A DNA stretch of 64,000 bases, from contig OZ037891.1 of assembly GCA_964035575.1 (NCBI GenBank), positions 434,001-498,000 of the forward strand, in the 5' to 3' direction. Positions 4,087 through 64,000 of this stretch are shown here, one piece after another. The position numbers and the translations under genes are program-made. The stretch comes from Rhynchopus sp. YZ270_cl-10. Taxonomy: Eukaryota; Euglenozoa; Diplonemea; Diplonemida; Diplonemidae. Below the pieces are notes generated by a model. That model was not told where the DNA came from and searched no databases. It worked only from the letters and a program-made list of their open reading frames with translations. How positions within the stretch are numbered: position 1 is the first letter of the stretch; the number at the start of each line of letters is the position of its first letter.

Positions 4087-4115
4087 AAGATGTGTGCGAA
4101 TGTGAGCATTCATCT
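4087..4115 (+). repeat. Family B hairpin
   Basis: AAGATG / CATCTT clamp, short inner stem TGC / GCA around GAATGTGA, followed by TCAAATTT as in most B copies. Confidence 0.6.
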
Positions 4116-4281
4116 TTCAAATTTATTTTTCTTTTTCAAAAAATAACCCCCCCCCATTGTGCGGGAATTCTGAATCAATATTAGAAGAAAAAAAGTGAGG
4201 TTGGTTCCTTTTTTTTTCTCCTCTCTCTTCCACAAAGGTCTGTTTTTGATGTCTGCGTTCACATACATCATAACTTTTTTA

Positions 4282-4351
4282 TTTGATAAATTGTTTGGAG
4301 TAGTGTAGTTGCCTCGGTTGTGTTGCCACAGTTTGTGCAAGCTCCACTGTC
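4282..4351 (-). repeat. Family D hairpin element, reverse orientation
   Basis: Read on the - strand: GGACAGTGGAGCTTGCACAA, TGTGGCAACACAACCGAGGC, AACTACACTACTC and CAATTTATCAAA. It is close to the copies at 27515 and 40928. Confidence 0.7.
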
Positions 4352-4797
4352 CTTTGTACTATTTTTTTTCTCTCAACCGGACCCTACATCACGCAGACTT
4401 AATCAACCTGCGTCTCCAATGATCCTTTCATTCATCTGACTGATGAGCGGAACCACGGTAGAACATATCAGATGCCAACCTCACAAGGATGTAACACTGC
4501 ATGGTTTTGGGGTCCACCCCCACGGTACACCTGTATTCATTGTACCGAAGATACATACTTTTTCTCTCCCCTCATCCCCCCCTCCACAGCAACACAAAAC
4601 ACACAACAAACACACCCCTTTTTCCACCCTTTTTGTGTGTCAAGACAACAACTATTTTCTGAGCCTTTCAAAAAACCCCCTCTCTCTGGGTAATTTTTTA
4701 AAGGCAAATCTTCCTTTCTCTCTCTCTTTTTGAGAATTTCGGTAAAACTTCGGTAAAAACCGCTTTTTTTTTTCTTTTTTTTCTTTCTCCCAACACA

Positions 4798-5886
4798 ATG
4801 TGCGTCCAGAACAGCAGCATGCCTATTGGGCGTACTTTGATTAAGAGCGTTGCACAGAATGTGACCATGGAGAGTGATATGCTTGAGAGCGAGGCGGTGT
4901 TGTGTCTGTTTGGGGATGTGGCTAGGATGGGAGCGGTGCTGCCGATGAAGGCTGCTGCAGGGCATGATGTGCGTCAGGGTGCGTGGACAGCGCTTCCAAT
5001 GTGGTTGCGTCAGGCCGTCCTCGCGGTTGTTGTGCAATGCGAGCAGGGGCCCCAGCAGAACGACACAGAGTCATCTACGATGCCCTCTGTCGCCTCCTCC
5101 ACGTCGCTTGACAACATGACAGCGACCTCCTCGCAGTACCTCATTCAGTGCGATTTCGAATGTATCGAAGTGCCCGAAATCACGCTTGAGGAGTACGCCT
5201 CGGTTCTCTTCACCTCTTTCACCTCGATGATGACCTGGGTGCGTGCCTTTGCGTTGTTGTCTCGGTTCTGCAAAACCTCGGGGGTGCCTTTGAGCATCTT
5301 CACCGCACACCGTCTGCTCCTCACAGCGCTGTACGTCACCGCGAAGTACCAGGGGGTAGGTGTCGACGCAGACCCCTCCTGGGGAATCCGCTCGGACGAT
5401 TTGCTCTCGATGGAGGAGTCCTTCGTGGAGGGGATTGGAGGGGACTTTACGGTCAGTGTGGCGGCGTGCCTCTGTGAGTTGCTGCCCTTTGAGAAATGCC
5501 CGAGGGAGGCCGTGGTGGCAGTAGGCCTTCTGGTCGCGGAGTGCGTGCCCAGGCAGGGGTTCTCGGTGAGGATGCAGAATTGGGCGGGGAAGGTGGTGTG
5601 TCCTCAGGCATGTGCATTGGAGGCGTCGTTGTTGCTGCCGGAGTTTGACCAGATTGAGGAGTGCGAAAGCGTCGAGTGTGACGACATCTTCGAGCACCCC
5701 CGCCCCAGTGAGGTGGAGCAGAGCTCAACCCAAAAGGCCACTGCAGCAGACCAGTCCAAGGCAAGCCTCCGTTCCCTTGGTCTCTCCCAGAGGATCTCCC
5801 AGACTGTCAGCAAGGCAAAAATCCAGTCCAGCACATTAGTCCGCAAGCTCTTCAGGAAGAGCCGGTCAGTAGAAATGGTGGCATGA
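4798..5886 (+). CDS. Cyclin, PHO80/P-U-type-like
   Basis: The protein is up to 362 residues long. Residues about 125-230 look like a divergent PHO80-type cyclin box: EEYASVLFTSFTSMMTWVRA, then FTAHRLLLTALYVTAKYQG, which matches the family's asparagine/histidine-Arg-Leu-Leu-Leu...A-x-K helix. Such cyclins bind and activate a cyclin-dependent kinase in cell-cycle or phosphate control, and they are common in protists including kinetoplastids. The N-terminal 110 residues are Met/Ala/Ser-rich and unassigned. The C-terminus is basic (RKLFRKSRS). The window's first ATG is at 4798, but a CAG acceptor at 4815-4817 right before the in-frame ATG at 4819 makes MPIGRTL a credible alternative start. The gene is intronless as read, and a strong T tract precedes it. 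Partner kinase and exact role are not inferable. Confidence 0.65.
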   Translation: MCVQNSSMPIGRTLIKSVAQNVTMESDMLESEAVLCLFGDVARMGAVLPMKAAAGHDVRQGAWTALPMWLRQAVLAVVVQCEQGPQQNDTESSTMPSVASSTSLDNMTATSSQYLIQCDFECIEVPEITLEEYASVLFTSFTSMMTWVRAFALLSRFCKTSGVPLSIFTAHRLLLTALYVTAKYQGVGVDADPSWGIRSDDLLSMEESFVEGIGGDFTVSVAACLCELLPFEKCPREAVVAVGLLVAECVPRQGFSVRMQNWAGKVVCPQACALEASLLLPEFDQIEECESVECDDIFEHPRPSEVEQSSTQKATAADQSKASLRSLGLSQRISQTVSKAKIQSSTLVRKLFRKSRSVEMVA

Positions 5887-6308
5887 AGAAAGGGACAAAA
5901 AAAAACAACAACAAAAACAACAAAAATATTTAAAATAAACTACCATTTCTGCATTGCCAGTGCCTTTTTTTTTAAAGTGGGAGGGGAAGGTAGAAGGAGG
6001 GAAAGGAAGGGAAGGGAAGGGAGGGGGCTAAAAAATTGAAAAAAGAAAAGAAAAAAATACCCCCTTTGGTGATCAAGGAGAGCAAAAAGAATGGACTCAA
6101 AAAAAAAAATCCTTATGTGATAATGGATTTGTTTTAAAGCAGGTGTACTTAGTCTAATGGATTATTTGTTATAAAAAAGGGCTTATTCTTTTTGCGATCT
6201 TTCCAAAGTCTTCTTGGTTGGTCAAAGGTGGGGTTTGTTTAGTCACCCCCTGTCCCTTTCCAGTTTTCTTCGCTTTCTTGACTCTCATATTTTTTTTATT
6301 TTATTTTA
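5887..6308. other. 3' flank of the cyclin gene
   Basis: Purine-rich (AGGG/GGAA) and poly-A/T sequence follows the stop. No coding sequence or clear poly-A signal was distinguished. Confidence 0.5.
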
Positions 6309-6340
6309 GGTGACTAAGCACGAGAGGCTAAGCTTCGTCC
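6309..6340 (+). repeat. Family A hairpin
   Basis: GGTGACTAAGCACGAGAGGC retains the family clamp, stem start and ACGAGAG loop. The 3' clamp reads TTCGTCC, so part of the outer pairing is changed. Confidence 0.6.
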
Positions 6341-6372
6341 TATGTCCTTTTATTTGTTTATTTTCAATGAGA

Positions 6373-6396
6373 AAGATGTGTGTCACATTCATCTTT
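6373..6396 (+). repeat. Family B hairpin, minimal
   Basis: AAGATGTGTGTCACATTCATCTT: clamp AAGATG / CATCTT with inner TGT / ACA and almost no loop, followed by TCAAAATTTT. Confidence 0.6.
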
Positions 6397-6576
6397 CAAA
6401 ATTTTATTTTTATTTGCAATATTTGGTAACGCATCACACAGACAATACGGTCAAAATGACCTCAGACGTTTTCACATTTTTTATATATTTGCTTTTTGGT
6501 AAAGTTTGTTTTAACACAAAGTAGATATCTTTGCACCTCAAAAAAGGAACGGAAAAAAGAAGAAAAGACTATAGTA

Positions 6577-6630
6577 TAGTGGAGCACACTCTAGGGTGGC
6601 TACACTAATACAACCAAGTTTTCAAAAAAC
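6577..6630 (+). repeat. Family C hairpin element
   Basis: Clamp TAGTGGAG / CTACACTA, inner stem CACTC / GGGTG, 3' tail ATACAACCAAGTTTTCAAAA. An identical stem occurs at 12064 and, inverted, at 48899. Confidence 0.7.
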
Positions 6631-7097
6631 AAACAAACAATGCCTTTCTGAGGTAACAATTGGAGAACAAAAAGCCCTTGTTTTTATTTTTTTTTCCAGT
6701 AGGGTGACAACAAACATTGCACGTTACTTCTTGCCAAGCAACTATGTAATTTTTTTCCAAACCAAATCCAAAAGATGCCAAAGAGATTTTTTTGTATTTA
6801 TTTTTGGGTTTATTTTATTGGAATGTCAAAAAAAATCCAAAAAACAGAGCAAAAAGGTGGTCTTTTTACAGTACATTCATTCATTTTTTTTTATATAGAT
6901 GTCTGTACTGTATTTTGAACCTCTTTTATTATAACGATTGTTCGAAAAAAATGGTGCCGCCTGTAGGGCGCATTTATCTTTTTCTTTCTTCCCCCCCCCT
7001 CGACCACCAACTTTTTTCTGTGTGACATGACAAATAGACTTTAAACTAAGAACAGTGAATCGCTCTACCATTCACAGCCGACTTTACAAAAAAAAAA

Positions 7098-7149
7098 TAG
7101 TGGAGTTCATCCTCGGGTGTCTGCACTAATACACCAAGTTTTCAAAAAA
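7098..7149 (+). repeat. Family C hairpin element
   Basis: Clamp TAGTGGAG / GCACTA, inner stem CATCC / GGGTG with loop TC, tail ACACCAAGTTTTCAAAA. Confidence 0.7.
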
Positions 7150-7261: not shown

Positions 7262-7325
7262 GCTTTCATCCGGATAGCTGGCATCGTACAGTGGGTCAGT
7301 CGGAGGTGTCTGCATTAATAACTAC
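7262..7325 (+). repeat. Family F dispersed element, copy 2
   Basis: CTTTCATCCGGATAGCTGGC, CAGTGGGTCAGTCGGAGGTG and CTGCATTAATAACTA. It is very close to the copy at 50632. Confidence 0.65.
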
Positions 7326-10642: not shown

Positions 10643-10693
10643 TAGTGGAGTCCATCCTCGGGTGTCTCCACTAATACAACCAAGTTTTCAAAC
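10643..10693 (+). repeat. Family C hairpin element
   Basis: TAGTGGAG ... CCACTA clamp with inner CATCC / GGGTG, then ATACAACCAAGTTTTCAAAC. Confidence 0.7.
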
Positions 10694-10934: not shown

Positions 10935-10976
10935 AAGGTGACTAAACAACGAGAGGCTAAGGTTCATCTTATAAAC
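10935..10976 (+). repeat. Family A hairpin
   Basis: AAGGTGACTAAACAACGAGA followed by GGCTAAGGTTCATCTTATAA. Clamp GGTGA / TCATC with a partly mismatched stem and the GAGAG loop. Confidence 0.65.
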
Positions 10977-12063
10977 TGTGTTTTTTTTTTTTTTTTTTTT
11001 TTGAGGAGGACAAAAAAACCACTCCACATTTCCACAAAGATTTCCTATTCATTTTTTTCATTTTTCATTTATTTTTTTTGCAAATGCCAGTGTCCTTTAT
11101 TGCTGTTTATACCCCTTATAGCGGGTGTTCCCTCTCCACGTATTGCCTTTTTTTTTTCTCTTGTTCTCAAAATAATGCAAAACAAAAAAAAAGGTGCAAA
11201 AGAGCAAGCAAACCTCTCTGCTCCCTGTGCACACACATATTGTATCAATTTTGAAAACGGGAACACTTGTGTTTTTTTTTAAAGTCAATTTTTTTTTTTA
11301 GCTGTGTTGAAATCAACACTCGTTTTTAAACGTAGCGCCACCATCGTGTAACAAAAGATGCCTCAGTGTCTTGCCCTTCTGCCCTTCTGGGAAGACACAC
11401 ACAATCTTTTTGCTTTTGTTTTTTTTGCTTCTCTTTTACCTTAAATGTAGGACTACAGTGTGATGTAGCGGGGGCAAAAAATACCCCTTTTTCTCATGAC
11501 TGGAGTACCCTTTCTTGGTGTATCAATGCGAGACATTCGTTATCGTCACGCTTTTCGCCATCTAAAAGGAAATAGTCATAGGGACATGGCACACCGCTAT
11601 AGCAAAGCTACTCACACGAATTCTACAGAAAAACTGTTTATTATCATCAAGAAACAAACCATATCAACCATTTTGCTTTATATGTGTCCAGACGCGCAAC
11701 AAAAAGTGTCTGCACTTTTTTTTATTTATATTGTTTGGACTTCGCCTCCACCCTTCGATAACCTGACCCCTCATCTACTGTTGTACTAAAGCCAAAGCAA
11801 TACAGAGAACCAACCATTTTTTTTTTTTGTTTTTTTACCACTTTTTTCAACCCTTCATCTGTTGTACAGGAAAAAATGCAATCCAAGATGTCAAAAGGGG
11901 GGAAATGAGGTCAACCAGAGTATTTTTATGTTTCCCATCTCTGGTTATATTGTTGTTGATGCAACAAAGGGAGGGGGAAACACTGAAAATGCAGCTGTAA
12001 GGTATTATTGACCGCTTAGATACAAAAGAACAAAAACAAAAAAAAAAAAAAAAAAAAAAAGGA

Positions 12064-12114
12064 TAGTGGAGCACACTCTAGGGTGGCACACACTAATACA
12101 ACCAAGTTTTCAAC
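12064..12114 (+). repeat. Family C hairpin element
   Basis: TAGTGGAG, CACTC / GGGTG inner stem, then ACACTAATACAACCAAGTTT. It is flanked by poly-A runs on both sides. Confidence 0.7.
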
Positions 12115-13410: not shown

Positions 13411-13478
13411 AGTGGAGATTGCACAACTATGGGCAACACAACCCCGAGGCAACTACACTACTCTAACAATTTATCAAG
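13411..13478 (+). repeat. Family D hairpin element
   Basis: AGTGGAGATTGCACAACTAT then GGCAACACAACCCCGAGGCA, ACTACACTACTCTAACAATT and TATCAAG. It sits 30 bp outside the hAT-like element. Confidence 0.7.
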
Positions 13479-14174: not shown

Positions 14175-14209
14175 AAGACGACTGAGCGCGAGATGCTTCG
14201 GTACGTCTT
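14175..14209 (+). repeat. Family A hairpin with a covaried clamp
   Basis: AAGACGACTGAGCGCGAGAT then GCTTCGGTACGTCTT. The outer clamp AAGACG / CGTCTT replaces the usual AAGRTG / CATCTT by a paired change, and the inner stem is GAGC / GCTT(C) with one G-T pair. Confidence 0.7.
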
Positions 14210-14309
14210 ACTAACCTTTTTTGTTTTGTTTTTGGCATGGCATTTTTTTCTGCCTACACCACGCCCCGCAGTGCTTTTTTTCTTCCTGTACTTTTAAAAA
14301 AATGATCCT

Positions 14310-18894: not shown

Positions 18895-18936
18895 AAGGTG
18901 ACTAAGCACGCCAAGGCTGATGTTCATCTTATAAAC
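18895..18936 (+). repeat. Family A hairpin
   Basis: AAGGTGACTAAGCACGCCAA then GGCTGATGTTCATCTTATAA. Clamp intact, inner stem weakened. Confidence 0.6.
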
Positions 18937-22704: not shown

Positions 22705-22738
22705 GAGATGTTTGTACAACGAGACGTACATTCATCTT
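22705..22738 (+). repeat. Family B hairpin with TGTAC/GTACA stem
   Basis: GAGATGTTTGTACAACGAGA then CGTACATTCATCTTTC. Inner stem TGTAC / GTACA replaces TGTGC / GCACA, a compensatory G-C to A-T change. Confidence 0.75.
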
Positions 22739-26117: not shown

Positions 26118-26186
26118 GCTTTCATCTGGATGCCTATCATAGTACAGTGAGTCAGTCAGAAATAGTCTGTATCAACTACTACATCC
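26118..26186 (+). repeat. Family F dispersed element, copy 3
   Basis: GCTTTCATCTGGATGCCTAT, TACAGTGAGTCAGTCAGAAA and CTGTATCAACTACTA. Confidence 0.6.
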
Positions 26187-27514: not shown

Positions 27515-27580
27515 AGTGGAGATTTGCACAACTGTGGCAACACAACCGAGGCAACTACACTAACCCAACAATTTATCAAA
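27515..27580 (+). repeat. Family D hairpin element
   Basis: AGTGGAGATTTGCACAACTG, TGGCAACACAACCGAGGCAA, CTACACTAACCCAACAATTT, ATCAAA. Nearly identical to 40928 and 56063. Confidence 0.75.
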
Positions 27581-29167: not shown

Positions 29168-29198
29168 GGTGACCTAAACACAGGTTTAGCTTCATCTT
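29168..29198 (+). repeat. Family A hairpin with CTAAAC/GTTTAG stem
   Basis: GGTGACCTAAACACAGGTTT then AGCTTCATCTT. The stem CTAAAC / GTTTAG replaces CTAAGC / GCTTAG by a compensatory G-C to A-T change. Loop reduced to ACAG. Confidence 0.75.
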
Positions 29199-36323: not shown

Positions 36324-37534
36324 CAGGGCGCGCGCTAAATCCACACCCTCACACCCGGTTTTTTCGAGGTTTTTTCGCGGTACAAAAATTTTTTGATTAC
36401 ACGATTTCCTTAAGAAAATCAGAGAATCCCATGTTGTACAGTAAGGGCACTTCAGATAGTTTTTGGACACACATGTGACCCCACCGTGGAGAGCAATCGG
36501 CTCGCGCAATCAAAAGAAAGCAGAAAAAAGGGGAAAGAAAAAAGAAAAAAGTTGGGTACCGTGCGCCTGCGGCGCTACCTGTTCCCTACCCCCCCATGAT
36601 GTACTTATGTATATTCCACCTGATTTTGACCATGTTTGCCGGTGTTTTCCGGTGTTGGCCGGTGAAGTCACGGTACTGTGTACTGTGTACTGTGTACTGT
36701 GTACTGTGTACTGTGTACTGTGTACTGTGTACTGTGTACTGTGTACTGTGTACTGTGTACTGTGTACTGTGTACTGTGTACTGTGTACTGTGTACTGTGT
36801 ACTGTGTACTGTGTACTGTGTACTGTGTACTGTGTACTGTGTACTGTGTACTGTGTACTGTGTACTGTGTACTGTGTACTGTGTACTGTGTACTGTGTAC
36901 TGTGTACTGTGTACTGTGTACTGTGTACTGTGTACTGTGTACTGTGTACTGTGTACTGTGTACTGTGTACTGTGTACTGTGTACTGTGTACTGTGTACTG
37001 TGTACTGTGTACTGTGTACTGTGTACTGTGTACTGTGTACTGTGTACTGTGTACTGTGTACTGTGTACTGTGTACTGTGTACTGTGTACTGTGTACTGTG
37101 TACTGTGTACTGTGTACTGTGTACTGTGTACTGTGTACTGTGTACTGTGTACTGTGTACTGTGTACTGTGTACTGTGTACTGTGTACTGTGTACTGTGTA
37201 CTGTGTACTGTGTACTGTGTACTGTGTACTGTGTACTGTGTACTGTGTACTGTGTACTGTGTACTGTGTACTGTGTACTGTGTACTGTGTACTGTGTCCG
37301 AAAGACCTGAAAATGACCCTTGTTTACGAGTATGGGTTCATATTTTGTGAAAATTTAAGTCACCAAAATTTTGTCCATTTTTCCATATATCCCCCACCAC
37401 AGCCCGGGATTTTATCGGAAATGTAACATGACCCTGATTTTTCTGCCCCCCTTCACATACTTCCTGTAGGTACATTTTTTTGGACCCGATATCCATTTTT
37501 TCGGGAAATTTCCGAAAAGTTAGCGCGCGCCCTG
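36324..37534. mobile_element. hAT-like element carrying a 623-bp heptamer satellite
   Basis: TIR CAGGGCGCGCGCTAA at both ends, with an exact 8-bp TSD CCCACAAT (36316-36323 and 37535-37542). Inside are TTGGGTACCGTGCGCCTGCG (the reverse complement of the shared module), a 7-bp tandem array (36674-37296), and AAATGACCCTTGTTTACGAG. No transposase. A related but array-free sequence is at 32690-33385. Confidence 0.88.
36674..37296. repeat. (TACTGTG)89 perfect tandem array
   Basis: The array spans 623 bp, exactly 89 units, with no variant unit that I can see. Open frames across it (repeating YCVLCTV) follow from the 21-bp period and are not genes. A short, imperfect version lies in the 28379-29065 element. 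Confidence 0.95.
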
Positions 37535-38490: not shown

Positions 38491-38532
38491 AGATGTCTGT
38501 GTATATGTGTGCACGAGAGACACATTCATCTT
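38491..38532 (+). repeat. Family B hairpin with extended 5' arm
   Basis: AGATGTCTGTGTATATGTGT then GCACGAGAGACACATTCATC and TT. GTGT / ACAC stem around GCACGAGAG. Confidence 0.65.
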
Positions 38533-38674: not shown

Positions 38675-38716
38675 AAGGTGACCGACCACGAGAGGCTTGG
38701 GGTCAGCTTTATAAAC
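38675..38716 (+). repeat. Family A hairpin
   Basis: AAGGTGACCGACCACGAGAG then GCTTGGGGTCAGCTTTATAA. Loop ACGAGAG kept, stem partly mismatched. Confidence 0.55.
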
Positions 38717-38800: not shown

Positions 38801-38868
38801 CTGGTGCTTTGGGAAGTCGGTCAACGACCTGTCAGCGACCTGTCAATATCGACCCCTCCCGGAGCACC
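38801..38868. mobile_element. Fold-back MITE, GGTGCT type
   Basis: TGGTGCT / GAGCACCA terminal stem around GTCAACGACCTGTCAGCGAC and CTGTCAATATCGACCCCTCC. The core is identical over about 50 bp to 53313-53380. Confidence 0.8.
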
Positions 38869-39021
38869 ACCCTTTTTTTGAGGGCTCAACTTCCCCAAAC
38901 CCAAAGCCCCCATCCTCCCCTCTCACACATCCCAGAACCATCACCACCTCCCACCCTTCCCCCCCTCCCCGCTCGCAATCTGGAAACATCCCACATGCTG
39001 TACATTTAAAGGATCATATCA

Positions 39022-39328: not shown

Positions 39329-39366
39329 AGGTGACTAAGTAGAGGCTTAGGATCATCTTATCAAAC
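39329..39366 (+). repeat. Family A hairpin, short-loop form
   Basis: AGGTGACTAAGTAGAGGCTT then AGGATCATCTTATCAAAC. Clamp GGTGA / TCATC, stem CTAAG / CTTAG. Confidence 0.65.
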
Positions 39367-40690: not shown

Positions 40691-40750
40691 TAGTGGAGTT
40701 CATCCTCGGGTGTCTACACTAATACAACCAAGTTTTACCAAGTTTTCAAA
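40691..40750 (+). repeat. Family C hairpin element
   Basis: TAGTGGAGTTCATCCTCGGG, TGTCTACACTAATACAACCA, then the CAAGTTTT tail in duplicate. Confidence 0.7.
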
Positions 40751-42689: not shown

Positions 42690-42727
42690 AAGGTGACCAA
42701 GCAAGCGAGAGGCTTGGATTCATCTTA
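42690..42727 (+). repeat. Family A hairpin with CCAAGC/GCTTGG stem
   Basis: AAGGTGACCAAGCAAGCGAG then AGGCTTGGATTCATCTT. T-A to C-G compensatory change relative to CTAAGC / GCTTAG. Confidence 0.75.
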
Positions 42728-42951: not shown

Positions 42952-42983
42952 AGATGGTGTATGCACTAGAGGTATATACATCT
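42952..42983 (+). repeat. Family B hairpin with TGTAT/ATATA stem
   Basis: AGATGGTGTATGCACTAGAG then GTATATACATCT. AGATG / CATCT clamp. Confidence 0.6.
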
Positions 42984-43266
42984 TCCCACTTTTCTTTTTC
43001 TTTTTAAACACAACAAAATTCTCGAACGAAAGAAAAATACCGACCAAAAAACAACATTAGGAACCAAACATACAGACAACTGTCCACACCATGGGGGTGT
43101 CCCCTGGCCACCCCCACCAGAGAAAAAGGATGGGGGAAAAGAAACGATGAAGGGGAAAACCATTTTGAGAGAAGTCGTTGCAAAAAGTGTTTTGTGGCGA
43201 CTTGAATCACTCCTCCAACATCTTTCTTTTTTTCCCCTTTTCAAAATCCAAAAAAGGTGTACGAAA

Positions 43267-43971: not shown

Positions 43972-44007
43972 GATGTGTGTGTGTGCACGAGAGGCACATT
44001 CATCTTT
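43972..44007 (+). repeat. Family B hairpin, canonical
   Basis: GATGTGTGTGTGTGCACGAG then AGGCACATTCATCTTT. TGTGC / GCACA stem with ACGAGAG loop. Confidence 0.75.
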
Positions 44008-44558: not shown

Positions 44559-47500
44559 ATGCCACGCACCCCTAGTGTAGGGGGTGTGCAACGGGGGAGA
44601 GGTGATTCGGTGGGGGCTGTTCGGAGGGTTGCATCGACTGCGGCGATACCGGTGCGGAGTAGTAGTGTTGTTATAGGGAATGGGAAGCCGAGAAGCTCGA
44701 TGCCGACAACAGCATCAACACGAACCCAAGAGAGAGAAAGCTACGATGCTGTTTCGCCAGGTGGAGTGTCGCAACGTAGTCAGTCTGCAGGGGCGGCAAA
44801 TGGAGGCATGGCGTCTGTCTCGGTGTTGGTGAGGTGCAGACCGCTACCAGCAGCAGAGGAGCAGGACCCCGAGAATTTGTCGCTCAAAATGTTAAAAAAT
44901 TCCGTCGTTGTACAGCCAACCTCAGGGAATAGCAATGCAGACGCACAGCAGCATGCCTTCACGTTTGATAGGGTGTTTTGGAGTGTACCGAACCACAACT
45001 CACCAAACCCATACGCAACGCAGGAGGATGTTCATCACGACGTAGGCGCGCCCATGCTAACAAGCTTTCTAAAGGGGTACAATTCGTGTATTTTAGCGTA
45101 TGGCCAAACAGGGAGTGGGAAGAGCTATTCAATGTTCGGGCCGGAAGATTCGCTTTCCTTTGTGAGCAGCTCGAAACGCAAAAAACGGAGCTCCGATAAA
45201 AATGGTGTAGTGCCGAGGATTATCGCAGATTTGTATGAACACATAAAATGCCGACCGGATATTCATTTTACTGTTGAAATTGCGTTTTATCAGATTTACT
45301 TGGAGAAAGCGACTTGTCTACTAAACCCTGGACAGGGCACACTACGGGTCAGGGAGCACCCTTTGACGGGACCGTATTTAGAAGATTTGACATCCTGTTT
45401 GTGCGAATCCAAGAGAAGCATGATGAAGGTAGTGCAAGAAGGCAACCGCTCCCGCAAGGTGGCACATACCAGGCAAAACGCGGTGTCCTCTCGGTCCCAT
45501 GCGGTTATCTCCATCTCTCTGGCACAGCAGGCCAAAAGCAGTGCGGGGGTCACAACAACATCAAAGCTCTCTCTCGTTGATCTTGCAGGGTCGGAACGCA
45601 TCGCCAAATCTGGAAGCTCTGGGGTAGGGTTCTTGGAAGCTTCGACTATCAACAAAAGTTTGTCAATTCTTGGAAAGGTCATTTCGGTGCTTGCAGGTAA
45701 GGCGTATAAGCGAAATAAAAATGCGGTTCACGTGCCATATCGAGACTCTATCCTGACCTGGCTTCTTCGTGAAAACCTAGGAGGTAATTCGCGTACAATG
45801 ATGCTCGCAACGATCTCCTCTTCCATCACAGACAGAGAGGAAACCCTCAGCACCCTCCGCTATGCAGACCAAGCAAAGCGTATCGTAAACAAAGCCGTCA
45901 TCAACGAAGGCGCCACGAAGAAGATCGTCCAGCAACTCAAATGCGAGATCAACTTCCTCCAGGAGCAGCTTTATAAAGGGACTGACGTGGTTTTGCAACA
46001 AAAACTATCTACTACACGAAAACTTATGGAGCAAATGAGCAAAACCTGGGATGAAAAATGGACTTCTACTCAAGCACTTTTACGAGAAAAGGAGGAGGAA
46101 GCGCAGCAATTACAACAAGAAAACATAGGCATGGCACAAGAACTAAAACGGATGACCAACGAGCTGGCCCGAGCACGCTCTGAAACCGCCGAAGTGATCC
46201 GCATGCGGAAGGACTACGAACGCCTGCAAACCGACTTCACCGACAAATGCGACGAGGTTGCGTACCTCACGGGCCGCACCTCCTCGATGTCCTCTCTCCC
46301 CATCTCCTCCAAGGACTCCTCTGCCTCCACACCCCCCGACACACCACGCCTCGAGGACCACTACCAATACAACCCACGCCTCTCACAACGCACCTTCTCT
46401 GGCAGCGCGGGGAGTGTTCCCGGGCAGTCACAGCCTAGGGCGTCTGCGGAGAAGGGGTACCCTCAGGCTAGGGTGTCACCTCGGATGTCGTCAACATCGC
46501 GACCGTCGCTGACGCTGAGTAGGAGGCAGCCGTCTGCCTCGTCGTCTTCGATGGAGACGGATTCGCCTACGACAGAGGATTCGACTGATATGGACGCAGA
46601 GATTCATGGGCGTTTTCATAAGCATCCGCAGCCAAGGGTCACGTCCGGGTCGGCGTCGTCGTCATCTTCGTCGCAGATCGCAGGGCAGTCTTTTAGTCCT
46701 GCGCAACGGAGTGGGGTGCCTGCACGCTATGGGGGTGGAGGTGGAGGTGGAGGTGGAGGTGGTGGTGGGGGTGGTGGTGGAGGTGGTGGTGGGGGTGGTG
46801 GTGGGGGTGGTGGTGGAGGTGGTGGTGGGGGTGGTGGTGGGGGTGGTGGTGGGGGTGGTGGTGGGGGTGGTGGTGGGGGTGGTGGGGTTGCGTCACTTCG
46901 CCCGCCTCTGCCAGAGAGGGAGAGGGAGAGAGAGAGAGAGAGGGAGAGGGAGAGGGAGCGTTCGCCGGCGAAGGATGGTCGTGTTTCGCACAGTGTTTCT
47001 GAGGACATAAAGGAAACCCTTGGGCGTGTAGGAGGAGGAGGGGGAGGAGGTCGAAGCGGGTCGTTCTTTGACAAGCCCAGACCATCCAGCCCGTTTCCCT
47101 CTTGGAGAGGTGATGCAAATGGCATGCGAGGCGGTACACCCCCAGCCCAAAGTATAGCGCCACACAGAGAGCGGGAGGATTTGAGGTGGAAAAAATGGTT
47201 GGAAAATAAAAAGCTAGGGCGGCCGTCAACCCCGGTAGCGGGCAGCAGCGTCAGCGTGCCCTTGGGGGTCACTTCTACACCGCCAGCGACACGAACCAAT
47301 CGGACTGCAGGGGCATTGGCAGCACGGCCGCTTCTTACTCCAGGGCAAAGTGGGGTGGGGGAACAACGTCAGCCCCTTGCAGGGCATACACCTCGACCTG
47401 CTGCAGCTACATCACGTCAGTACAAAGCCACTGCAACCCGAGCGCCATCCCCTGTAGTAAGGGAGGTGGGAAAACCTGGGGTAGTGACGCCAAAACACAA

Positions 47501-48733: not shown

Positions 48734-48768
48734 AAGGTGACTAAGCACGCGAGACTTAGTTTCATCTT
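48734..48768 (+). repeat. Family A hairpin
   Basis: AAGGTGACTAAGCACGCGAG then ACTTAGTTTCATCTT. CTAAG / CTTAG stem, full AAGGTGA / TCATCTT clamp. Confidence 0.7.
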
Positions 48769-50631: not shown

Positions 50632-50694
50632 GATTTCATCTGGATGGCTGGCATCGTACAGTGGGTCAGTCGGAGGTGCCTGCATCAACAACTA
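50632..50694 (+). repeat. Family F dispersed element, copy 4
   Basis: TTTCATCTGGATGGCTGGCA, CGTACAGTGGGTCAGTCGGA, GGTGCCTGCATCAACAACTA. Confidence 0.65.
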
Positions 50695-50903: not shown

Positions 50904-50980
50904 GCGCAACACTCCGGGGTTCGATAACCCACGGAGTGTCAGTGCCTGCGTCCCAGAGGCGTTTGCACTATCAACTTCAC
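50904..50980 (+). repeat. Family G junction element
   Basis: GCGCAACACTCCGGGGTTCG then ATAACCCACGGAGTGTCAGT, GCCTGCGTCCCAGAGGCGTT, TGCACTATCAACTTCAC. Stem CACTCCG / CGGAGTG. It lies about 70 bp before the FYVE-Rheb start. Confidence 0.7.
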
Positions 50981-51051
50981 TTTTTATGACACAGACCTTG
51001 GTGTATATTTTTTAACACAGAGAGGGGGGTCTGTTTTTTTCAAAACAAATC

Positions 51052-52824
51052 ATGGGTGAGGAGGGTCGCCCGAAGTGGCGGCCTGACACGGACACGTCGG
51101 CGTGCGAGGACTGTTCTGAGCTGTTTTCATTTTTCAACCGGAGGCATCATTGCCGGCGGTGTGGGGGTCTGTTCTGCGGGAAATGCAGCGCGTCGAAGAA
51201 GATGTTGGGGAAGGAGATGGGGTATGGGGCTGAACCGCAACGGGTCTGCAAGGCGTGCGCTCGCGCATTGGAATCTTCTCAGGGGGCAACCAGCACTGCG
51301 TTTAGCGGGGCTGCGTCTGAACGCAAGGACCCTGTTGTGAAGCAACGCAAAATATGTGTTCTCGGGAAGTCGTGGGTCGGCAAGTCTGCGATCTGCGTGC
51401 AGTTCATCGAGGACCGTTTCTCGCCCTACTACAACCCCACCATCAACCACACATACCAACGTAAAATCAAATTCAAAGCGCAGCAGTACCTCCTCAGCAT
51501 CCTCGACACAGCAGGGCAGGATGAGTGCTCCATGTTCCAGCCGCAGTACTCCATAGGCACCCACGGCTACATCATTCTGTACAGCATCAACGACTACCAC
51601 TCCTTTGAGATGGTCAAGTCCATCTACGACAGAATACAAGACTGTAACATCCTAGACGGCGTGGTCCTCATTCTGGTCGGCAACAAAAACGACCTCCCGT
51701 CCTCAGAGCGACAGGTGTGTAGAAGAGGGGGAGGGGGGGTGTAGGTTTAAAATTCTTACCTTTTTCTGACAATGTTTATTGCGTGAAATATTATTTTCCC
51801 AATATTGTACGATTCTGATAAAGGTGGCGTCGCATGAGGATTAGGCTTACCAACTCTTTCAATAGATTGTGATCAAGGTAACTAAATCATGAGGCTTGGG
51901 AGATGGTTTAAACTTTTTTTTGTAGTGCGAAAGTGTCGCGTTGTGTAGTTTCATGTGTGGGGTGGCTTGCAGGGTAGGGGTGATCAATTCACAACAAAAG
52001 ACTCTGCTTTCCATCAATTTGTTGCACCATCTTTCCCCCTATAGGTATCATACGAGGAAGGCCAGCAGCTGGCCACGTCGTGGGGGTTCCCGTTTATGGA
52101 GTGTTCGGCAAAGAAGGTATGTGACTGTTCTTTTATTCCCTGTCGGCAACCCCAAACGCAACAAACACTCCGGGGGTTCGATAACCCACGGAGTGTCAGT
52201 GCCTGCGTCCCAGAGGCGTTGTGCACTATCAACTTCACTTTATTTTTTTGTGAGGAGCGCGGGACTGAGCGGAAATGGTCCCAGCGTCACGGCGCTCGGA
52301 CCATTTCGGACGACTTCTTTATTGAGAAAGATGTGTGTGCACGAGAGGCACGTTCATCCATTCAAGTTTTCTTTATTTATTACCCATTGCAAAACCCCCT
52401 CTGACACATCTTAAATTAGCGGTACACCGCCTGTAAGCCTTATTCATATAAAGCCCTCAGAGGATGGGGTCCCACTATAAGAGAGAGATGTTCTGTCTCC
52501 CGACTGCCCTGTTCTCTCGACAATGTTTCACCAAGAGTTAGGCGAATCGTATGGGGAGAATCTGTAAGCTCACAACTGGGCCGCAGAACGACGGGGCGGT
52601 TGTATTGCTACCCCGCATTATCACACTACGGTACGGCCAAGCCGTTTGTAGCTGTTTGTGGGTTCCTTTTTATTTTTACGCCAAATGGCCAAATTACCAA
52701 ATCACAACGGCAACCTTCTACATTGCTTCTGTGCACCTTGCAACCAACACCACAGGCGGAGAACATCGAAGCTGTTTTCAACCTGATGCTTGAAGAGATC
52801 CTGCGGGCTGAGGAGGAGGCATAG
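51052..52824 (+). CDS. FYVE-Rheb fusion GTPase, three exons, no CaaX box
   Basis: Exons are 51052-51714, 52045-52116 and 52756-52824, all joined in phase 0, giving 267 residues. Residues about 8-70 form a FYVE zinc finger: WRPD, CEDC, RRHHCRRCGG, CGKC and RVCKAC supply the eight cysteines and the basic PI3P-binding patch. From about 99 the protein is a Rheb-like GTPase: G1 GKSWVGKS (105-112), switch I NPTINHTY, G3 DTAGQDECSMF (152-162), G4 NKND (211-214), and exon 2 VSYEEGQQLATSW ... ECSAKK (G5). The Rheb-like DTAGQDE-x-S-x-F and Y-EEG motifs separate it from Rab. Rheb activates TOR kinase at endolysosomal membranes through a farnesylated CaaX tail. Here exon 3 ends EEILRAEEEA with no cysteine, so membrane contact would rest on the FYVE domain (inference). 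Ras positions 12/13 are Ser-Trp, unlike Gly-Gly. Confidence 0.85.
51715..52044 (+). other. Intron 1 of the FYVE-Rheb gene
   Basis: Donor GTGTGT, acceptor TTTCCCCCTATAG, 330 bp. It contains two eroded family A traces (AAGGTGGCGTCGCATGAGGA at 51821 and AAGGTAACTAAATCATGAGG at 51875). Confidence 0.8.
52156..52239 (+). repeat. Family G junction element, intronic
   Basis: ACACTCCGGGGGTTCGATAA, CCCACGGAGTGTCAGTGCCT, GCGTCCCAGAGGCGTTGTGC, ACTATCAACTTCACT. Confidence 0.7.
52328..52358 (+). repeat. Family B hairpin, intronic
   Basis: AAGATGTGTGTGCACGAGAG then GCACGTTCATC. GTGC / GCAC stem with ACGAGAG loop. Confidence 0.7.
52418..52600 (+). repeat. TATA-family repeat, fragment, intronic
   Basis: GGTACACCGCCTGTAAGCCT, GGGGTCCCACT, CTCTCGACAATG, TTTCACCAAGAGTT and TCTGTAAGCTCACAACTGGG match copies 1 and 2, without the TATATAAATGC part. 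Confidence 0.6.
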
Positions 52825-52902: not shown

Positions 52903-52933
52903 AGATGTGTACGCATGAGAAGCACGTTCATCT
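52903..52933 (+). repeat. Family B hairpin
   Basis: AGATGTGTACGCATGAGAAG then CACGTTCATCT. It lies 79 bp after the Rheb stop. Confidence 0.6.
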
Positions 52934-53141: not shown

Positions 53142-53178
53142 AAGGTGATTGAACAACAAGAGGCTTAGGTTTATCTTC
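53142..53178 (+). repeat. Family A hairpin
   Basis: AAGGTGATTGAACAACAAGA then GGCTTAGGTTTATCTTC. Clamp partly preserved. Confidence 0.5.
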
Positions 53179-53312: not shown

Positions 53313-53380
53313 TGGTGCTTTCGGAAATTAGTCAACGACCTGTCAGCGACCTGTCAATATCGACCCCTCCCGGAGCACCA
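53313..53380. mobile_element. Fold-back MITE, GGTGCT type, second copy
   Basis: TGGTGCTTTCGG / CCCGGAGCACCA with the core GTCAACGACCTGTCAGCGAC, matching 38801-38868. Confidence 0.8.
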
Positions 53381-53490: not shown

Positions 53491-54340
53491 CAGGCCTTTT
53501 GCTAACTTTGGGATTTTCCCCCTGAATGGCATGATGGTCAAAAAAAAATAATTTCCTGGAAAAAAAAGTACATTCCGAGCTTTCCCGCCTGGTGAAAGCG
53601 GTCGTCGCGCGCTTCGCGCGCGCCTCCCTGCCAGCCACAGGGTGGAGAGGCGAAGGGTCAGCTTTGCGAGATATAAACAAAAAACGGAATATAATCCTTT
53701 ATTAACGGTCCTTGGTCTTGCGCCTTACGTACACTAACCGTACAAAATCAATACGTCTTCCAGAAGCAGGGGCTGTTGCAACGGTTGGGTTCCTTTGAAA
53801 TAAGAATGGTCAATTTTTTGCAGCTTGGGTCAAGTTTCATTTCTGGCTGCAAAATGCAAGGGAATCCCCTTAGACATTGTAAAATGGCACCGTAGGCAGG
53901 AAGAAAATAGCGTACAGCGAGCGCAGCGAGCAGAAAAATTGTAAGGTGTCATCGTGCCATCGTGCCATCGTGCCATCGTGCCATCGTGCCATCGTGCCAT
54001 CGTGCCATCGTGCCATCGTGCCATCGTGCCATCGTGCCATCGTGCCATCGTGCCATCGTGCCATCGTGCCATCGTGCCATCGTGCCATCGTGCCATCGTG
54101 CCATCGTGCCATCGTGCCATCGTGCCATCGTGCCATCGTGCCATCGTGCCATCGTGCCATCATGCCATCATGCCATCATGCCATCATGCCATCATGCCAT
54201 CTGGGGGGGAAATCCCCAGGTGATGGATAGCGAAAGCCCTGCCCCACCACCCCCCGTGGCATGATGGTGGCATGATGGAAAAAAAAATAAAAAACGCCCA
54301 AAAACGTGGCACGATGGCATGATGGTTAGCAAAAGGCCTG
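53491..54340. mobile_element. 850-bp TIR element with 9-bp TSD and an octamer satellite
   Basis: TIR CAGGCCTTTTGCTAAC, perfect over 16 bp, with exact 9-bp TSD CAATATCTG at 53482-53490 and 54341-54349. A 9-bp TSD fits Mutator-like elements better than hAT, but the interior CATTCCGAGCTTTC and GAGCGCAGCGAGC modules match the hAT-like 48971-49649. GGCATGATGG motifs lie near both ends, and an array of CATCGTGC occupies 53950-54202. No transposase. Confidence 0.88.
53950..54202. repeat. 8-bp tandem array CATCGTGC / CATCATGC
   Basis: About 31 units. The right-most five or so are CATCATGC, matching the host element's own GGCATGATGG motif, and the rest are CATCGTGC. Open frames over it (MARWHDGT or HRAIVPSC repeats) are not genes. 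Confidence 0.95.
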
Positions 54341-54623: not shown

Positions 54624-54676
54624 ACGGAGTGTAGTGCCTGCGGTCCCAGAGGCGTTTGTGAACTATCAACTTCACC
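54624..54676 (+). repeat. Family G element, 5' truncated
   Basis: ACGGAGTGTAGTGCCTGCGG, TCCCAGAGGCGTTTGTGAAC, TATCAACTTCACC. The first arm and box are missing. Confidence 0.55.
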
Positions 54677-55853: not shown

Positions 55854-55882
55854 AAGATGTGTGTCTGAGACACATTCATCTT
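55854..55882 (+). repeat. Family B hairpin with TGTGTC/GACACA stem
   Basis: AAGATGTGTGTCTGAGACAC then ATTCATCTT. A near-perfect hairpin with a three-base loop. Confidence 0.75.
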
Positions 55883-59405: not shown

Positions 59406-61048
59406 TAAACGGGAGGGATGATAGCGGCTTTATTTTTCTTTTGTGGTTTGTGATATTTGAGGAAAAGTAAAAAAGGTGAAGGGTGGGGAAATTTTTTTTT
59501 AAACAAAGTTTTGACACGGTGATTTGTTTGTCGGTGCTGCAAAAAAAGGGGACATCATACACATAAAGGATAGCTAAGACTGTCTGAGGAACGGCACTAA
59601 ACCAACTGAGAGCAAAAAAGGCAAATGGGATATGGGGAAGGGGTCCAAAAGGAAAAAATGCGGAAACCAGGTGACACAAGGATAGGAAAACCGCCCAAAA
59701 AAACTTTTTTGATGAATTGTGTTCCGTCACCACACCTTTGAAAGTAAGTTGGCGTGACAACTTTGGCGAAAATAAAAATAAACGACCGGCCTCCAAGACA
59801 GAGAAAACATTGCCTGATTGGTTTCTGGAGGCTGTAACCCACATCTTTTGAGAAAGATTTCTGTATTAAGGTCATTCTTTTGCAGCTCTATGTGTCCGCA
59901 GAACTGTTTGTGTACCTGCAACGTTGCCCCCCCTTTTAGAAGGAACAGAGAAGAGCCAAGAGTGTGCTTGAAACAGATTCTTGCGCTCAAAAAAAAATAA
60001 TGATAAAATAAAACAAGTGCGAAGGTGTTCTGTTTCAACCTTAGTTTTTCCCCCCTCACCCCCCTTCACCACCCCCCCCTACTTTTTACCTTAATTTGGT
60101 TTGAAAGATTTTTTAAAAAAAAACAAGAAAACAAAAAAACAAGAATAATATAAAAAAAACGTTCTGTAAAGGGAAGGAGTTAAGGACACCCGATATTCAG
60201 TGCTCATGTGCATTTACTTATTGATGTGTGTGCAGGAGAAGGCACATTCATCTTTTTCAAGGTTTCTTTACTTTTGTGAGAGTTTTTTTCTTTTTTTCTT
60301 TATGTTATTTTTGATACAAAAGCTCGGGAGGTGTGTTTATTATTATTATGATTTTATGTTTTTTGAGGAAAGATACTAGGAAATGGGCAGGTTTTTGGGT
60401 GTGTGATGGACAAAAAAAAAATATATAACAAAAAAAAATTCTTTACAACCCACCTCTTAGGGTGTTCTGCAAGATAAAACAAAGACAGGGTAGGGCCCTC
60501 TCTTCTCTCTCTCTCTCTCCCCCCCCTTTCAACCCCCCTTTCGAATGCTTGCACAGCAATAGATATTTTTTTTTGTAGGTTGGGATGGGGGGGGGGGGTT
60601 TTTTTTTTTGTTGGGCAACTTTCCCCCCAACACGATCTGCTAATTCTCACAAAAGTGGGAATGTACTTTTTTTTTCTCTTTTTCTTTTTTCTGTCGGTGT
60701 ATATAACATCTCAACCTTCATTTTAAGAACTACAACAAACGGAAACGAAGCATGAATATGGCAAAGAGACAAATACACAACAAATGTTTTTTTCAAAAAA
60801 AAGACAAAAAAAAAAAAAAAAAAAACAAACGTAGGCCAAAAAACCCTCCCCATTACCTTCTCTTGAAAACAAAGGGAAAGGCAACGAGGGGACACAAAAA
60901 TATAAAGAGATTGCGAAGATATGGGTAACAAGATCTGTGTGTGTGTGTGGAAAAGGGTTGCGTGGGGAAAGAGGGTAATATCCCCGACAAAAAAAAGGGG
61001 GACAAAAAAATATGGAACTATATGCCCCCCCACAGAAGTTTTCTTTTT
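59406..61048. other. Gene-free intergenic DNA
   Basis: A/T- and C-run-rich. A family B hairpin is at 60223-60254. No gene. Confidence 0.5.
60223..60254 (+). repeat. Family B hairpin
   Basis: GATGTGTGTGCAGGAGAAGG then CACATTCATCTT. TGTGC / GCACA stem. Confidence 0.7.
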
Positions 61049-61626
61049 GGGAAGGCCCATTATTCCAATCCATGTTACAATGTTACTTGAAATGGGGTCC
61101 AAACCCCCCCCCCCCCCCCCCAACGAGCAAAAAAATTTTTGGGAATCACGGTTTCCCCCCTAAGTTACAGGGGGCCCTGTACAAAACCTAAGGGGGGGTC
61201 CGAAAAAATTTTCCCACCCACAAAAAATCAAAAAAAAAAAATTTTTTTTCCGATTCTCGGGAGACTGTGCGTGCTGTGATGGGGTCATTTTGCGCTGAGA
61301 AATGAGTTTTTTTGGCCTAAAATGCATGTGTCAGTTTTTAGGTGAAAATACACCCAAAACTGACACATGCATTTTAGGCCAAAAAAACTCATTTCTCAGC
61401 GCAAAATGACCCCATCACAGCACACACAGTCTCCCGAGAATCGGAAAAAAAAAATTTTTTTTTCGATTTTTTGTGGGCAAAAATTGGTCAAAAAAAATTT
61501 CCGACCCCAATTTGTACCGTTGAAAAAAAAAATATTCCATCCTAAGTAACAAAATTCCCGCCCCCAGACCCCCCCCCCCCCCCCCATTGTTACATTGTAA
61601 CATGGATTGGAATAATGGGCCTTCCC
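61049..61626. mobile_element. 578-bp giant palindromic element
   Basis: Outer arms GGGAAGGCCCATTATTCCAA and CATGTTACAATG are inverted at 61589-61626. A second, nearly perfect pair of arms of about 130 bp (61213-61344 and 61351-61483) contains GTGATGGGGTCATTTTGCGC and its inverse. The unit is one long fold-back. GATGGGGTCA resembles the CCCCACCAC core elsewhere. A 17-base C run lies near each end. No clear target duplication. Confidence 0.8.
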
Positions 61627-61676
61627 TTTCTCTTTTTCTTTTTACTTACCGATACCCCCCCACTCTGAACAGTTTT

Positions 61677-61785
61677 GATTACAGTCATCCAAAGGTTGGT
61701 GGGGTAAAAACGTTGGTGAATTTGGGGGCTCAAAAAAATTTGGTGGGTTTTTACCCCACCAACCTTTGTTGGATGACTGTAACAG
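61677..61785. mobile_element. Fold-back MITE, TTACAGTCATCC ends
   Basis: ATTACAGTCATCCAAAGGTT and GGTGGGGTAAAAAC are inverted at the right end (GTTTTTACCCCACC, AACCTTTGTTGGATGACTGT). The left edge is only about 50 bp from the palindromic element, upstream of the PPR-like gene. Confidence 0.75.
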
Positions 61786-62113
61786 GTCTCCGGGTTTATT
61801 GGTGCACCCAGACTCACAGGCTACGACTGTCATCCAATACCATGCTCATACCGAAACACTATATCGTCCCAAAGTGACAAATTCTGTCTGGGTAAATGAC
61901 CTCATCGATGCAGGGTCTAACGATTGCTGGTTAAAGTGGCTTGAGCAAAGGATGAAATCCATCTTACCCAAACTTTTCTTTCCCCGCTTTCCCTTTATAC
62001 TATCACAAAGAGTTATTTCAAATACCCCTTCCGTAGAATAGACAGCATTTTACCGAACTCTTATCACTCAAATCACCACCCTTTCAGGCCCCCCCTGCAT
62101 CTTACACTACACA

Positions 62114-63448
62114 ATGCACCGGGCCATGCTATGCGAGAATCTTGCACGGAGAGGACACCGCGTCTCTATGGTACGCTTCGCTGCACCCTGCTTCGATCGT
62201 CTCACATCGTCACCGTTACCATCATCATCCCTCTTTCTGCAGACACGATGCAATGTCATGACAGCAATCCCACCCGAACCGCCTCGCAACAAAAGCCTTC
62301 CACGTGACCCAGTTAGCACCACGATAGACTTTGTGGAAACATTACGAAGTGGTGCGGATGAGAGTGTTGTTCTCAATCACATCATCGACAAACACGGAAA
62401 GAATAAGGTAGCCATGCGGCTCATGCCTGAAGTAGTTGCAGGACTTCGGAGGGGGGGAAATTTAGGATCGGGTGTATGCGTGGCGATGCTCCGTCTTTGC
62501 GCGCATGGTGGAACAGATTGGAAACTTCCTTGGGGAGTTTTGCAACATATGCAGAAAGAGAAGATTCCCATTTCGCATAGCGCACTGCACTGTGCAGTTA
62601 AAGCTGCAATCTCTCTAAAACCAGACGGCCCCCAAAAACGTCACCACGCACACCAACGCAAAGAGCTTCTCTCCTTCGCATGCAAGCTGTCCAAACCGGA
62701 CCCCATCCCGCAGCACACCATTCTTCTGCTTCTCTCAATCTTTGTGCCCTGCAATGAGACAGAGTTTAGTGAGGCAAAGAAGGCAGCAGAATATATGGGT
62801 CTACAACCGTCCATAGAGGGTTCAATGTTTGAGCTTCAAAACCAAGCGAAATCTGGGCTGGAGGTGCTAGCTTTGTGGGGGCAAACTCGAGCGGATTTTC
62901 CAAAAATTGCGATTTCTGTGGATTATATGCAGGCAGCTTTGAAAATATGTATTGCCAAAAGAGATTTTGCCTCTGCAGAAAGCTTGTTAACGATTGCGGC
63001 AGGAGAGCCGGTGTTGGTTCCGTCATTGTGGTTGATGCTGTTGAGGGCAAGACATCCGGCATTGAAGGTGAAGGAAACGTATGCGTTGATGCTGTCGTTT
63101 GGTGTAGTACCGACGTATCCTTGCATGCTTCATGTTCTCCAGGTGTACGTCGGAGAGGTGCGTCTGCGGAACGACAGGTGGTACCGAGACGCAACAGCTG
63201 TGGCGGCGGCGATCGTGCATTTGCAGAAGTGGTCTGTTCCCCCAACAGTGTTTGTGCGCACCCTGCAGGACCTCATGGAGAAGACGAACCAGCCCAACGA
63301 GGCCATCGACGCCTTCATCACAACGGACGCAGTCTGGCTGCAGAATTGGCGCAGCTTTCTCAGACCCCTCCCAGTAGAGGGTCGCGGTGCAGCAGTCTCG
63401 CCCTTTGCTAAGAACCCGGCGATAGCAATGATGGGGGAGGTCGTGTGA
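62114..63448 (+). CDS. PPR-like helical-repeat protein, probably organellar
   Basis: The protein has 444 residues and no intron. The body is a series of paired helices with PPR-like spacing and motifs: LPWGVLQHMQKEKIPISHSA, VDYMQAALKICIAKRDFASA, VKETYALMLSFGVVPTYPCM and LHVLQVYVGE. In PPR proteins each pair contacts an RNA base, mostly in mitochondria or plastids, for editing, processing or translation. The N-terminus (MHRAMLCENLARRGHRVSMV) is Arg-rich with one acid, which suits a mitochondrial presequence. In-frame ATGs at about 62168 and 62258 are alternatives. A CAG acceptor-like site (CACCCTTTCAG, 62087) lies 26 bases before the start. The motifs are degenerate, so the precise family is uncertain. 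Confidence 0.6.
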   Translation: MHRAMLCENLARRGHRVSMVRFAAPCFDRLTSSPLPSSSLFLQTRCNVMTAIPPEPPRNKSLPRDPVSTTIDFVETLRSGADESVVLNHIIDKHGKNKVAMRLMPEVVAGLRRGGNLGSGVCVAMLRLCAHGGTDWKLPWGVLQHMQKEKIPISHSALHCAVKAAISLKPDGPQKRHHAHQRKELLSFACKLSKPDPIPQHTILLLLSIFVPCNETEFSEAKKAAEYMGLQPSIEGSMFELQNQAKSGLEVLALWGQTRADFPKIAISVDYMQAALKICIAKRDFASAESLLTIAAGEPVLVPSLWLMLLRARHPALKVKETYALMLSFGVVPTYPCMLHVLQVYVGEVRLRNDRWYRDATAVAAAIVHLQKWSVPPTVFVRTLQDLMEKTNQPNEAIDAFITTDAVWLQNWRSFLRPLPVEGRGAAVSPFAKNPAIAMMGEVV

Positions 63449-64000
63449 AGGTGATCGGGAGAGAGAGAGAGAAGGAGGGAGTAGGGATGTGTCTGCCTGA
63501 CGGTACCGACAGTTATTGCGCTTTTTTCTTTTGACGATTGATCAAGGTGAGAGGCTTAGGTTCATCTTACTCTTTTGTATGAAATCCAGCAACGAAAATA
63601 GCAAAAAAAAAAACGCCTTCCCCTTTTAATTCATACACAATTACACGGTGGTCCTGTTAAGACATGATGTGACGGGCTACAATAGGGTGAAATGATGTGT
63701 ATCGTTTACGACGTAATGACGGAGGGGTGGCGCTGTCTTGATGTCAGGGCCTGACAGGGATTCTGTGTATTATAAGAACCACCCCCAAAGGAAAGCCCCA
63801 AACAACTGAGAGAAGATTTTTTCCCGACAAACTTCCTTCTATTCAGAACACCCTCGTAGCATCCCACCACTCCCCCCACACCCCCCCTACACACACTCTT
63901 TTTTCAAATGCTTGGTATCCCCTTAATATGATTTGTCCCCGCCTTTTTGCTTTTGAATTTGGTTTTGTTTCCACATACCAATGAATTCTCTTGATGTGTT
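63449..64000. other. 3' flank of the PPR-like gene
   Basis: A shortened family A copy (AAGGTGAGAGGCTTAGGTTC, ATCTT) is at 63544-63568, then mixed sequence. No further gene up to the window edge. Confidence 0.5.

Follow-up and report, generated by a model that had tools for sequence, protein, structure and literature searches.

Two families of very short hairpins, A and B, are dispersed through the nuclear genome of the diplonemid Rhynchopus sp. YZ270_cl-10 (Euglenozoa; assembly of 152.4 Mb in 126 contigs), and nearly all of their copies point the same way along a chromosome arm. We analyzed them starting from a stretch of 64,000 nucleotides, C59:434001-498000, referred to here as the window. 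To judge from their sequences the families look like decayed tiny mobile elements, and we consider it probable that they represent two related families of such elements, very small and non-autonomous. The strand lock is the surprising part and deserves most attention. Mobile elements normally occur in either orientation and show a modest bias at most.

The two families have in common a clamp, AAGRTGA/TCATCTT, and the loop ACGAGAG. Consensus A reads AAGGTGA CTAAGC ACGAGAG GCTTAG GTTCATCTT, followed by ATAAACTTTTCTTTT, and consensus B reads AAGATG TGTGTGC ACGAGAG GCACATT CATCTT, followed by TCAAGTTTTCTTTT; a copy consists of the hairpin and a short T-rich tail, spans about 35-75 nt and lies within T-rich non-coding DNA. 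When the window was searched with sequence-only nhmmer profiles at E<10, 24 A and 16 B matches were found, all on the plus strand, and as two matches are common to both families these mark 38 places. At 6 bits or more there were 18 A and 14 B matches, again all on the plus strand, compared with a total of 3 A and 0 B matches from ten dinucleotide-shuffled windows. A previous, sequence-only reading of this DNA had proposed that these are real dispersed hairpin families; these counts bear it out, and every coordinate that it gave holds the arms quoted there. In a looser profile round some short, incomplete B matches also appeared on the opposite strand (window 11227-11238, 12 nt; fetched loci L020 and L046). 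Genome-wide, the 19-nt B core had 2,424 matches with at most 2 mismatches (1,244 + 1,180), against a single match of the reversed control (0 + 1), and by extrapolation each family would number some tens of thousands of degenerate copies if the window is typical. The dispersed, short, non-coding copies in high number that mark short interspersed elements (SINEs) are thus found in A and B. A known RNA family was rejected as the identity of the hairpins: Rfam gave no match on them in ten loci at gathering scores, nor any match at E<=5 in the stretch of a longer A form or in those of two further families, D and E. A viral collection held no exact A match.

To describe orientation locally, the plus strand of the window and the minus strand of the left end of C59 were taken as sense. 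Same-to-opposite counts in this set were 18:0 for A and 8:0 for B, and for the further small families D to H they were 11:0 (D), 11:0 (E), 9:0 (F), 11:2 (G) and 11:1 (H). The controls gave 5:7 (J), 4:4 (N), 10:2 (K), 5:1 (M) and 5:1 (O); not every control is therefore balanced, and a lean to sense like that of F and the reverse transcriptases is seen in K, M and O. In 30 other loci, each oriented by its anchoring B copy with that copy left out, the counts were A 23:0, B 5:1, D 8:0, E 4:0, F 4:0, G 5:1 and H 3:0. The same pattern holds across the genome. For 461 A/B places among the matches listed, on 90 contigs, a leave-one-out comparison with neighbours gave 303 in the same orientation, 3 opposite and 155 without a call. 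The 371 neighbour pairs among these places include 59 minus-to-plus and 4 plus-to-minus switches, and for 347 listed places there were 46 switches, compared with 101 or more in every within-contig shuffle. Most contigs show a single minus-to-plus switch of the hairpin strand, the exceptions being C1 (one place) and C2 (two places); plus-to-minus switches in C42 and C58 stem from places found with a relaxed pattern and lacking the family loop. Chromosomes seem to consist of two arms whose genes are read outwards from a single internal point.

A codon score allowed the gene strand to be called in 19 of 40 loci (the other 21 gave no call), and in 16 of these 19 it matched the hairpin strand. The three misses trace to simple repeats (L006 and L026) and to a tandem array (L041) for which the strand had been set by default. 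Pfam domains were found in 8 of 12 open reading frames (ORFs) on the hairpin strand, whereas four long ORFs from the opposite strand of the fetched loci had none. Together these results indicate that the lock follows gene direction as far as tested, and its reference may be transcription or co-oriented replication. Other repeats are less strictly oriented. Reverse transcriptase matches gave 45:23, with 22 uncalled, in a first set of 90 rows and 19:4, with 36 uncalled, in a further 59, summing to 64:27. A strand lock of F was considered from local counts of 14:0 and 13:0 and given up, since genome-wide, among the 100 exact matches listed of 501, F shows a mild sense bias of 50:20 with 30 uncalled. 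A skew of T tracts was likewise rejected as the cause of the lock: runs of A and of T of at least 10 nt on the sense strand number 77 and 86 in the window and 67 and 74 at the left end of C59. In the 30 other loci the corresponding numbers are 48 and 94.

Several observations fit mobility, the signals of target duplication being weak. A longer form of A begins GCAGCTGATGCTGCGCGATAACGAATGTGATCAA in L030, and a pattern built on the interior of this form matches the genome at 64 places with at most 3 mismatches; shortened remnants of this form precede some other A copies locally, and most local copies begin at the hairpin. Flanking repeats are longer than in mis-paired flanks for A (p 0.007), B (p 0.009) and G (p 0.012). 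The best are exact repeats of 14 nt, around the A copy at 39329-39359 (CCCCCCTTTTTTTT, a candidate target-site duplication) and around a G copy at 40691-40736 in an A-rich tract (AAAAAAGGGGGATA); a 15-nt flank match at 12064 is for the most part an A homopolymer. The candidate duplications of A vary in length, and the clamp forms an imperfect inverted repeat. In L050 an A copy is interrupted by a copy of F, which resembles a miniature inverted-repeat transposable element (MITE), and GCTTA stands at either end of the inserted F. The sequence-only reading had left the choice between a mobile element and a recurrent RNA or protein-binding signal; the many dispersed copies, the longer A form, the nested F and some flanking duplications give the mobile element more support than the signal.

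The earlier proposal had rested on compensatory stem changes, taken to mean that the fold had been under selection or was templated during copying; selection on the fold of every single copy is not supported here. General retention of pairing in changed copies was not confirmed: among window copies with both arms complete and changed, all six inner pairs are retained in 3 of 18 A copies and all five in 4 of 7 B copies. The compensated copies first cited were a selection that omitted uncompensated ones at 48735, 10936, 6308, 18896 and 43394, and at 14175, where the clamp had been said to covary, the arms AAGACG/CGTCTT are present while the inner stem of that copy is incompletely paired. We extended the comparison to about 250 kb, from which sequence-only profiles recruited 92 rows for A and 76 for B. 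The B rows include the anchoring copies of the 30 loci, which had been selected for an exact loop and 3' arm, and in B this arm is consequently biased to consensus. Whole stems with any arm change were fully paired in 11 of 50 fetched A copies (9.2 when arms were re-dealt) and in 13 of 23 fetched B copies (13.0 when re-dealt). Whole stems show no excess of pairing and single pairs a small one, concentrated in two pairs per family; slid pairings of the A inner stem showed no excess (p 0.12 to 0.73). Single transitions that break a pair and those that keep a wobble are about equally frequent (24:16 in A, 10:14 in B; local table, summed by hand).

Genome-wide matches close to consensus agree with this. 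At one B pair, a 5' A is accompanied by the compensating T in 4 of 35 hits and T accompanies a 5' C or T in 4 of 20 (55 hits, counted by hand); a stricter B pattern with 16 hits, which addresses the same question and is not counted separately, has the partner T in 1 of 12 with A. At A position 2, for which 94 of 193 genome matches were listed, a 5' C has the compensating G in 9 of 64; with any other 5' base, the partner is G in 4 of 30. At A position 5, with 100 of 171 matches listed, a 5' A has T in 0 of 64 and a 5' T has A in 1 of 34. Compensated transitions are no commoner than expected in near-consensus copies genome-wide; 5'-arm changes there are mostly left unpaired, and the compensatory evidence for single copies is weak.

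A number of observations weigh against this interpretation and against mobility, and we collect them here. The per-pair shuffles favour pairing, with 721 standard pairs over 12 pairs in A against 713 expected (sd 2.1, p 0.002) and 296 over 5 pairs in B against 290 (sd 1.1), a value reached in 0 of 2,000 shuffles. At A position 2 a 5' G has the compensating C in 4 of 22, and C stands beside other bases in 4 of 72, a lean to pairing. With a relaxed B pattern the compensating T is present in 32 of 76 matches, and it is commoner in diverged copies, where the rest of the 3' arm is altered (23 of 37), than in those that have this arm intact (9 of 39), figures that serve as an internal comparison only. 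Selection on old copies could be the cause of the compensation in diverged B and of the per-pair excess. On the side of mobility, flanking repeats of H are no longer than in mis-paired flanks (p 0.85), and the evidence for target-site duplication is only statistical because the repeats are low in complexity. To our knowledge a strand lock of 99% is unusual for SINEs or MITEs, and the mechanism that we offer for it below is one we infer. The covariation in diverged B copies is probably sublineage history, the compensated sublineages being older than the near-consensus copies, which would fit a fold needed by source lineages rather than by each copy.

A rival explanation is that each hairpin is a working signal in pre-mRNA, for processing, stability or protein binding, and stands in sense because it acts in RNA. 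The near-absolute sense orientation of A, B, D and E, the presence of copies inside an intron and 3' of a gene, and the covariation in diverged B together with the small overall excess of paired cells would all be expected of such a signal. We nevertheless regard it as unlikely, given that near-consensus copies tolerate unpaired stems and that whole-stem pairing is at chance. A role as splice acceptor was rejected as well: the tails resemble a branch site and pyrimidine tract, yet the first downstream AG is preceded by a pyrimidine no more frequently than it is behind T runs elsewhere (YAG fraction 0.55 for A, 0.36 for B and 0.44 for the control runs).

If A and B are mobile elements, several sublineages would each have had source copies that were under constraint to fold and that spread with machinery borrowed from other elements, a non-long-terminal-repeat (non-LTR) reverse transcriptase being the likeliest; reverse transcriptases are abundant in this genome (150 scored matches, 739 candidates). 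New copies would enter T-rich tracts, and an inserted copy, having no job, would then decay. Insertion or survival would depend on the strand relative to transcription or co-oriented replication, and nearly all copies would therefore be found in sense. For the lock itself, strand-specific insertion is a serious possibility, if somewhat short of an even chance; removal of antisense copies is a fairly doubtful one, and what remains of our expectation goes to other causes. In one specific form of removal, a transcript with an antisense copy would pair with the RNA of thousands of sense copies and set off RNA interference, so that antisense copies are purged and each family stays in the direction in which it was first common. 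The strength of the lock in A and B (303:3), compared with G and H (30:4 over both local sets), F and the reverse transcriptases, is in keeping with this, and Diplonema papillatum is reported, in passages of its description, to have Dicer-like, Argonaute, Piwi and RNA-dependent polymerase genes (PMC10161547). D and E, however, are fully locked in few local copies, and we think this account rather improbable. That the copies are mobile introns (introners) is highly improbable: the A consensus in sense, CAAG/GTGACT...ATAAAC-TTTTCTTTT, resembles a short hairpin intron with a 5' splice-site-like start and a branch- and pyrimidine-like tail, the lock is in sense, and six diplonemids have median intron lengths of 37 to 107 nt according to passages of PMC12621601, but there is no YAG enrichment, B, D and E are without a 5' signal, and one B copy lies mid-way in a larger intron.

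SINEs mobilised by long interspersed elements (LINEs) are short and dispersed, with A/T-rich target tracts, variable duplications and a 3' tail. A and B resemble them in being short and dispersed, in their A/T-rich tracts and in the 3' tail, and differ in being far shorter, in that the hairpin is most of the element and in a strand lock that is nearly absolute. With MITEs they share short length and nested insertion, their own ends forming an imperfect inverted repeat, and F looks like a MITE; unlike MITEs, A and B show no fixed-length duplication, and their lock is much stronger than that of F. The SIDERs of trypanosomatids are far longer than A and B. In the passages of PMC2323293 available, SIDER/RIME elements are short degenerate retroposons that mostly overlap 3' untranslated regions and carry 11-19-bp duplications in part of the copies; like A and B, they are many short, non-autonomous, degenerate repeats in polycistronic euglenozoan genomes. 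SIDERs carry a 79-bp retroposon signature; A and B are about 35-75 nt and mostly hairpin, and those passages make no mention of a strand lock. Non-canonical introns of euglenids and hemistasiid diplonemids are also short and euglenozoan with paired ends, as passages of PMC12621601 describe; the two introns of the Rheb-FYVE gene discussed below are GT-AG by eye, and A and B are known here from DNA alone. The D. papillatum passages likewise describe unidirectional gene clusters with spliced-leader trans-splicing, and nearly 10,000 dispersed repeat motifs, the commonest with about 6,000 copies (PMC10161547). Among the papers listed in a literature survey on diplonemid hairpins, introns, transposable elements and repeats, on spliced leaders, on SINEs of Leishmania and other Euglenozoa and on strand-biased SINEs, with most subscription papers and all supplements outside it, none was seen to name such elements.

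A lock of about 99% over whole arms, in copies that otherwise look nearly neutral, would call for strand-specific insertion or a strong antisense filter, either of which would, as far as is known, be new for so small an element. The lock also offers an inexpensive way to read chromosome polarity in diplonemids, which are abundant in the sea and little studied. A bolder and more tentative reading is that in this genome several families of tiny hairpin elements keep to one strand over whole arms because insertion itself depends on transcription or co-oriented replication, or because double-stranded RNA purges antisense copies, in which case the orientation of dead repeats would map the polarity of every chromosome.

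The window copies discussed here are all on the plus strand and, except where stated, were found with nhmmer. In family A, the whole-stem check identified incompletely paired inner stems at 6308-6341 (CTAAGC/GCTAAG), at 10936-10970 (CTAAAC/GCTAAG) and in the copy with the altered clamp at 14176-14210, one mismatch (CTAAGC/ACTTAG) in the near-consensus copy at 48734-48768, and compensation at 42691-42727 (CCAAGC/GCTTGG), where GATTGTGATC of the longer form lies upstream, and at 29174-29198 (CTAAAC/GTTTAG), recovered in the looser profile round. The remaining A copies are an uncompensated one at 18895-18930, those at 38675-38709 and 53143-53177, the latter downstream of the Rheb-FYVE gene, and a fragment at 63547-63568. 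The B copies comprise a diverged one at 4087-4116 that folds at -11.2 kcal/mol, one at 22706-22738 that is compensated by the whole-stem check (TGTAC/GTACA), a near-consensus copy at 43978-44006, one with TGTGTC/GACACA at 55855-55882, and those at 38503-38532, 42957-42984, 52328-52359, 52903-52933 and 60223-60254.

The strand lock and families D to H were absent from the sequence-only reading. D is a small hairpin family, locally strand-locked and often with an upstream palindrome around TTCGATAACC; its window copies are at 3507-3548, 50933-50983, 52190-52241 and 54627-54675. E is a small strand-locked repeat with a T-rich tail (576-625, 7267-7324 and 26123-26180, with a further plus-strand copy at 50637-50694). 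F is 68 nt long with ends TGGTGCT/AGCACCA; it lies on the plus strand at 53313-53379 and occurs also at 38802-38869 and in L050 at about 4179 in sense coordinates; its 38-nt end has 501 genome matches with at most 2 mismatches. A 5-bp duplication accompanies F in L019 and L050, is imperfect at 38802 and is not present at 53313. G and H are small hairpin elements in A-rich tracts, mostly in sense with some antisense copies (G at 6577-6623 and 10643-10688 besides the plus-strand copy at 40691; H at 13412-13475 and 27515-27577).

Pfam domains were found in four of the six plus-strand ORFs of the window that were submitted (cyclin, kinesin, Ras/FYVE and protein kinase) and in none of the four longer minus-strand ORFs submitted. 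The FYVE-Rheb gene begins at a start codon at 51052 on the plus strand, about 70 nt beyond the end of the plus-strand D copy at 50933-50983, and the best named relatives of its FYVE-Ras product are from diplonemids (Rhynchopus euleeides, 79% identity; Diplonema ambulator, 76%). Read by eye, it has three exons, the first at 51052-51714, separated by GT-AG introns; the first predicted intron holds a degenerate A-like stretch and the second the B copy at 52328-52359, and beyond the stop codon follow the B copy at 52903-52933 and the A copy at 53143-53177.

Elsewhere in the window, the kinesin gene encodes a long poly-glycine tract from a GGTGGT-type repeat (46730-46897), and there are long tandem arrays at 36519-37400 (14-nt unit) and 53890-54250 (8-nt unit). 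A near-perfect palindrome at 61217-61477, with 122-nt arms that are 97% complementary and a 17-nt gap, holds two Rfam matches that are probably due to chance. At the left end of C59 (L032-L041) open frames are long on both strands, and TTCATCTT is found on neither; L041 has an open frame of 2,117 codons, and this end of the contig looks like a tandem array.

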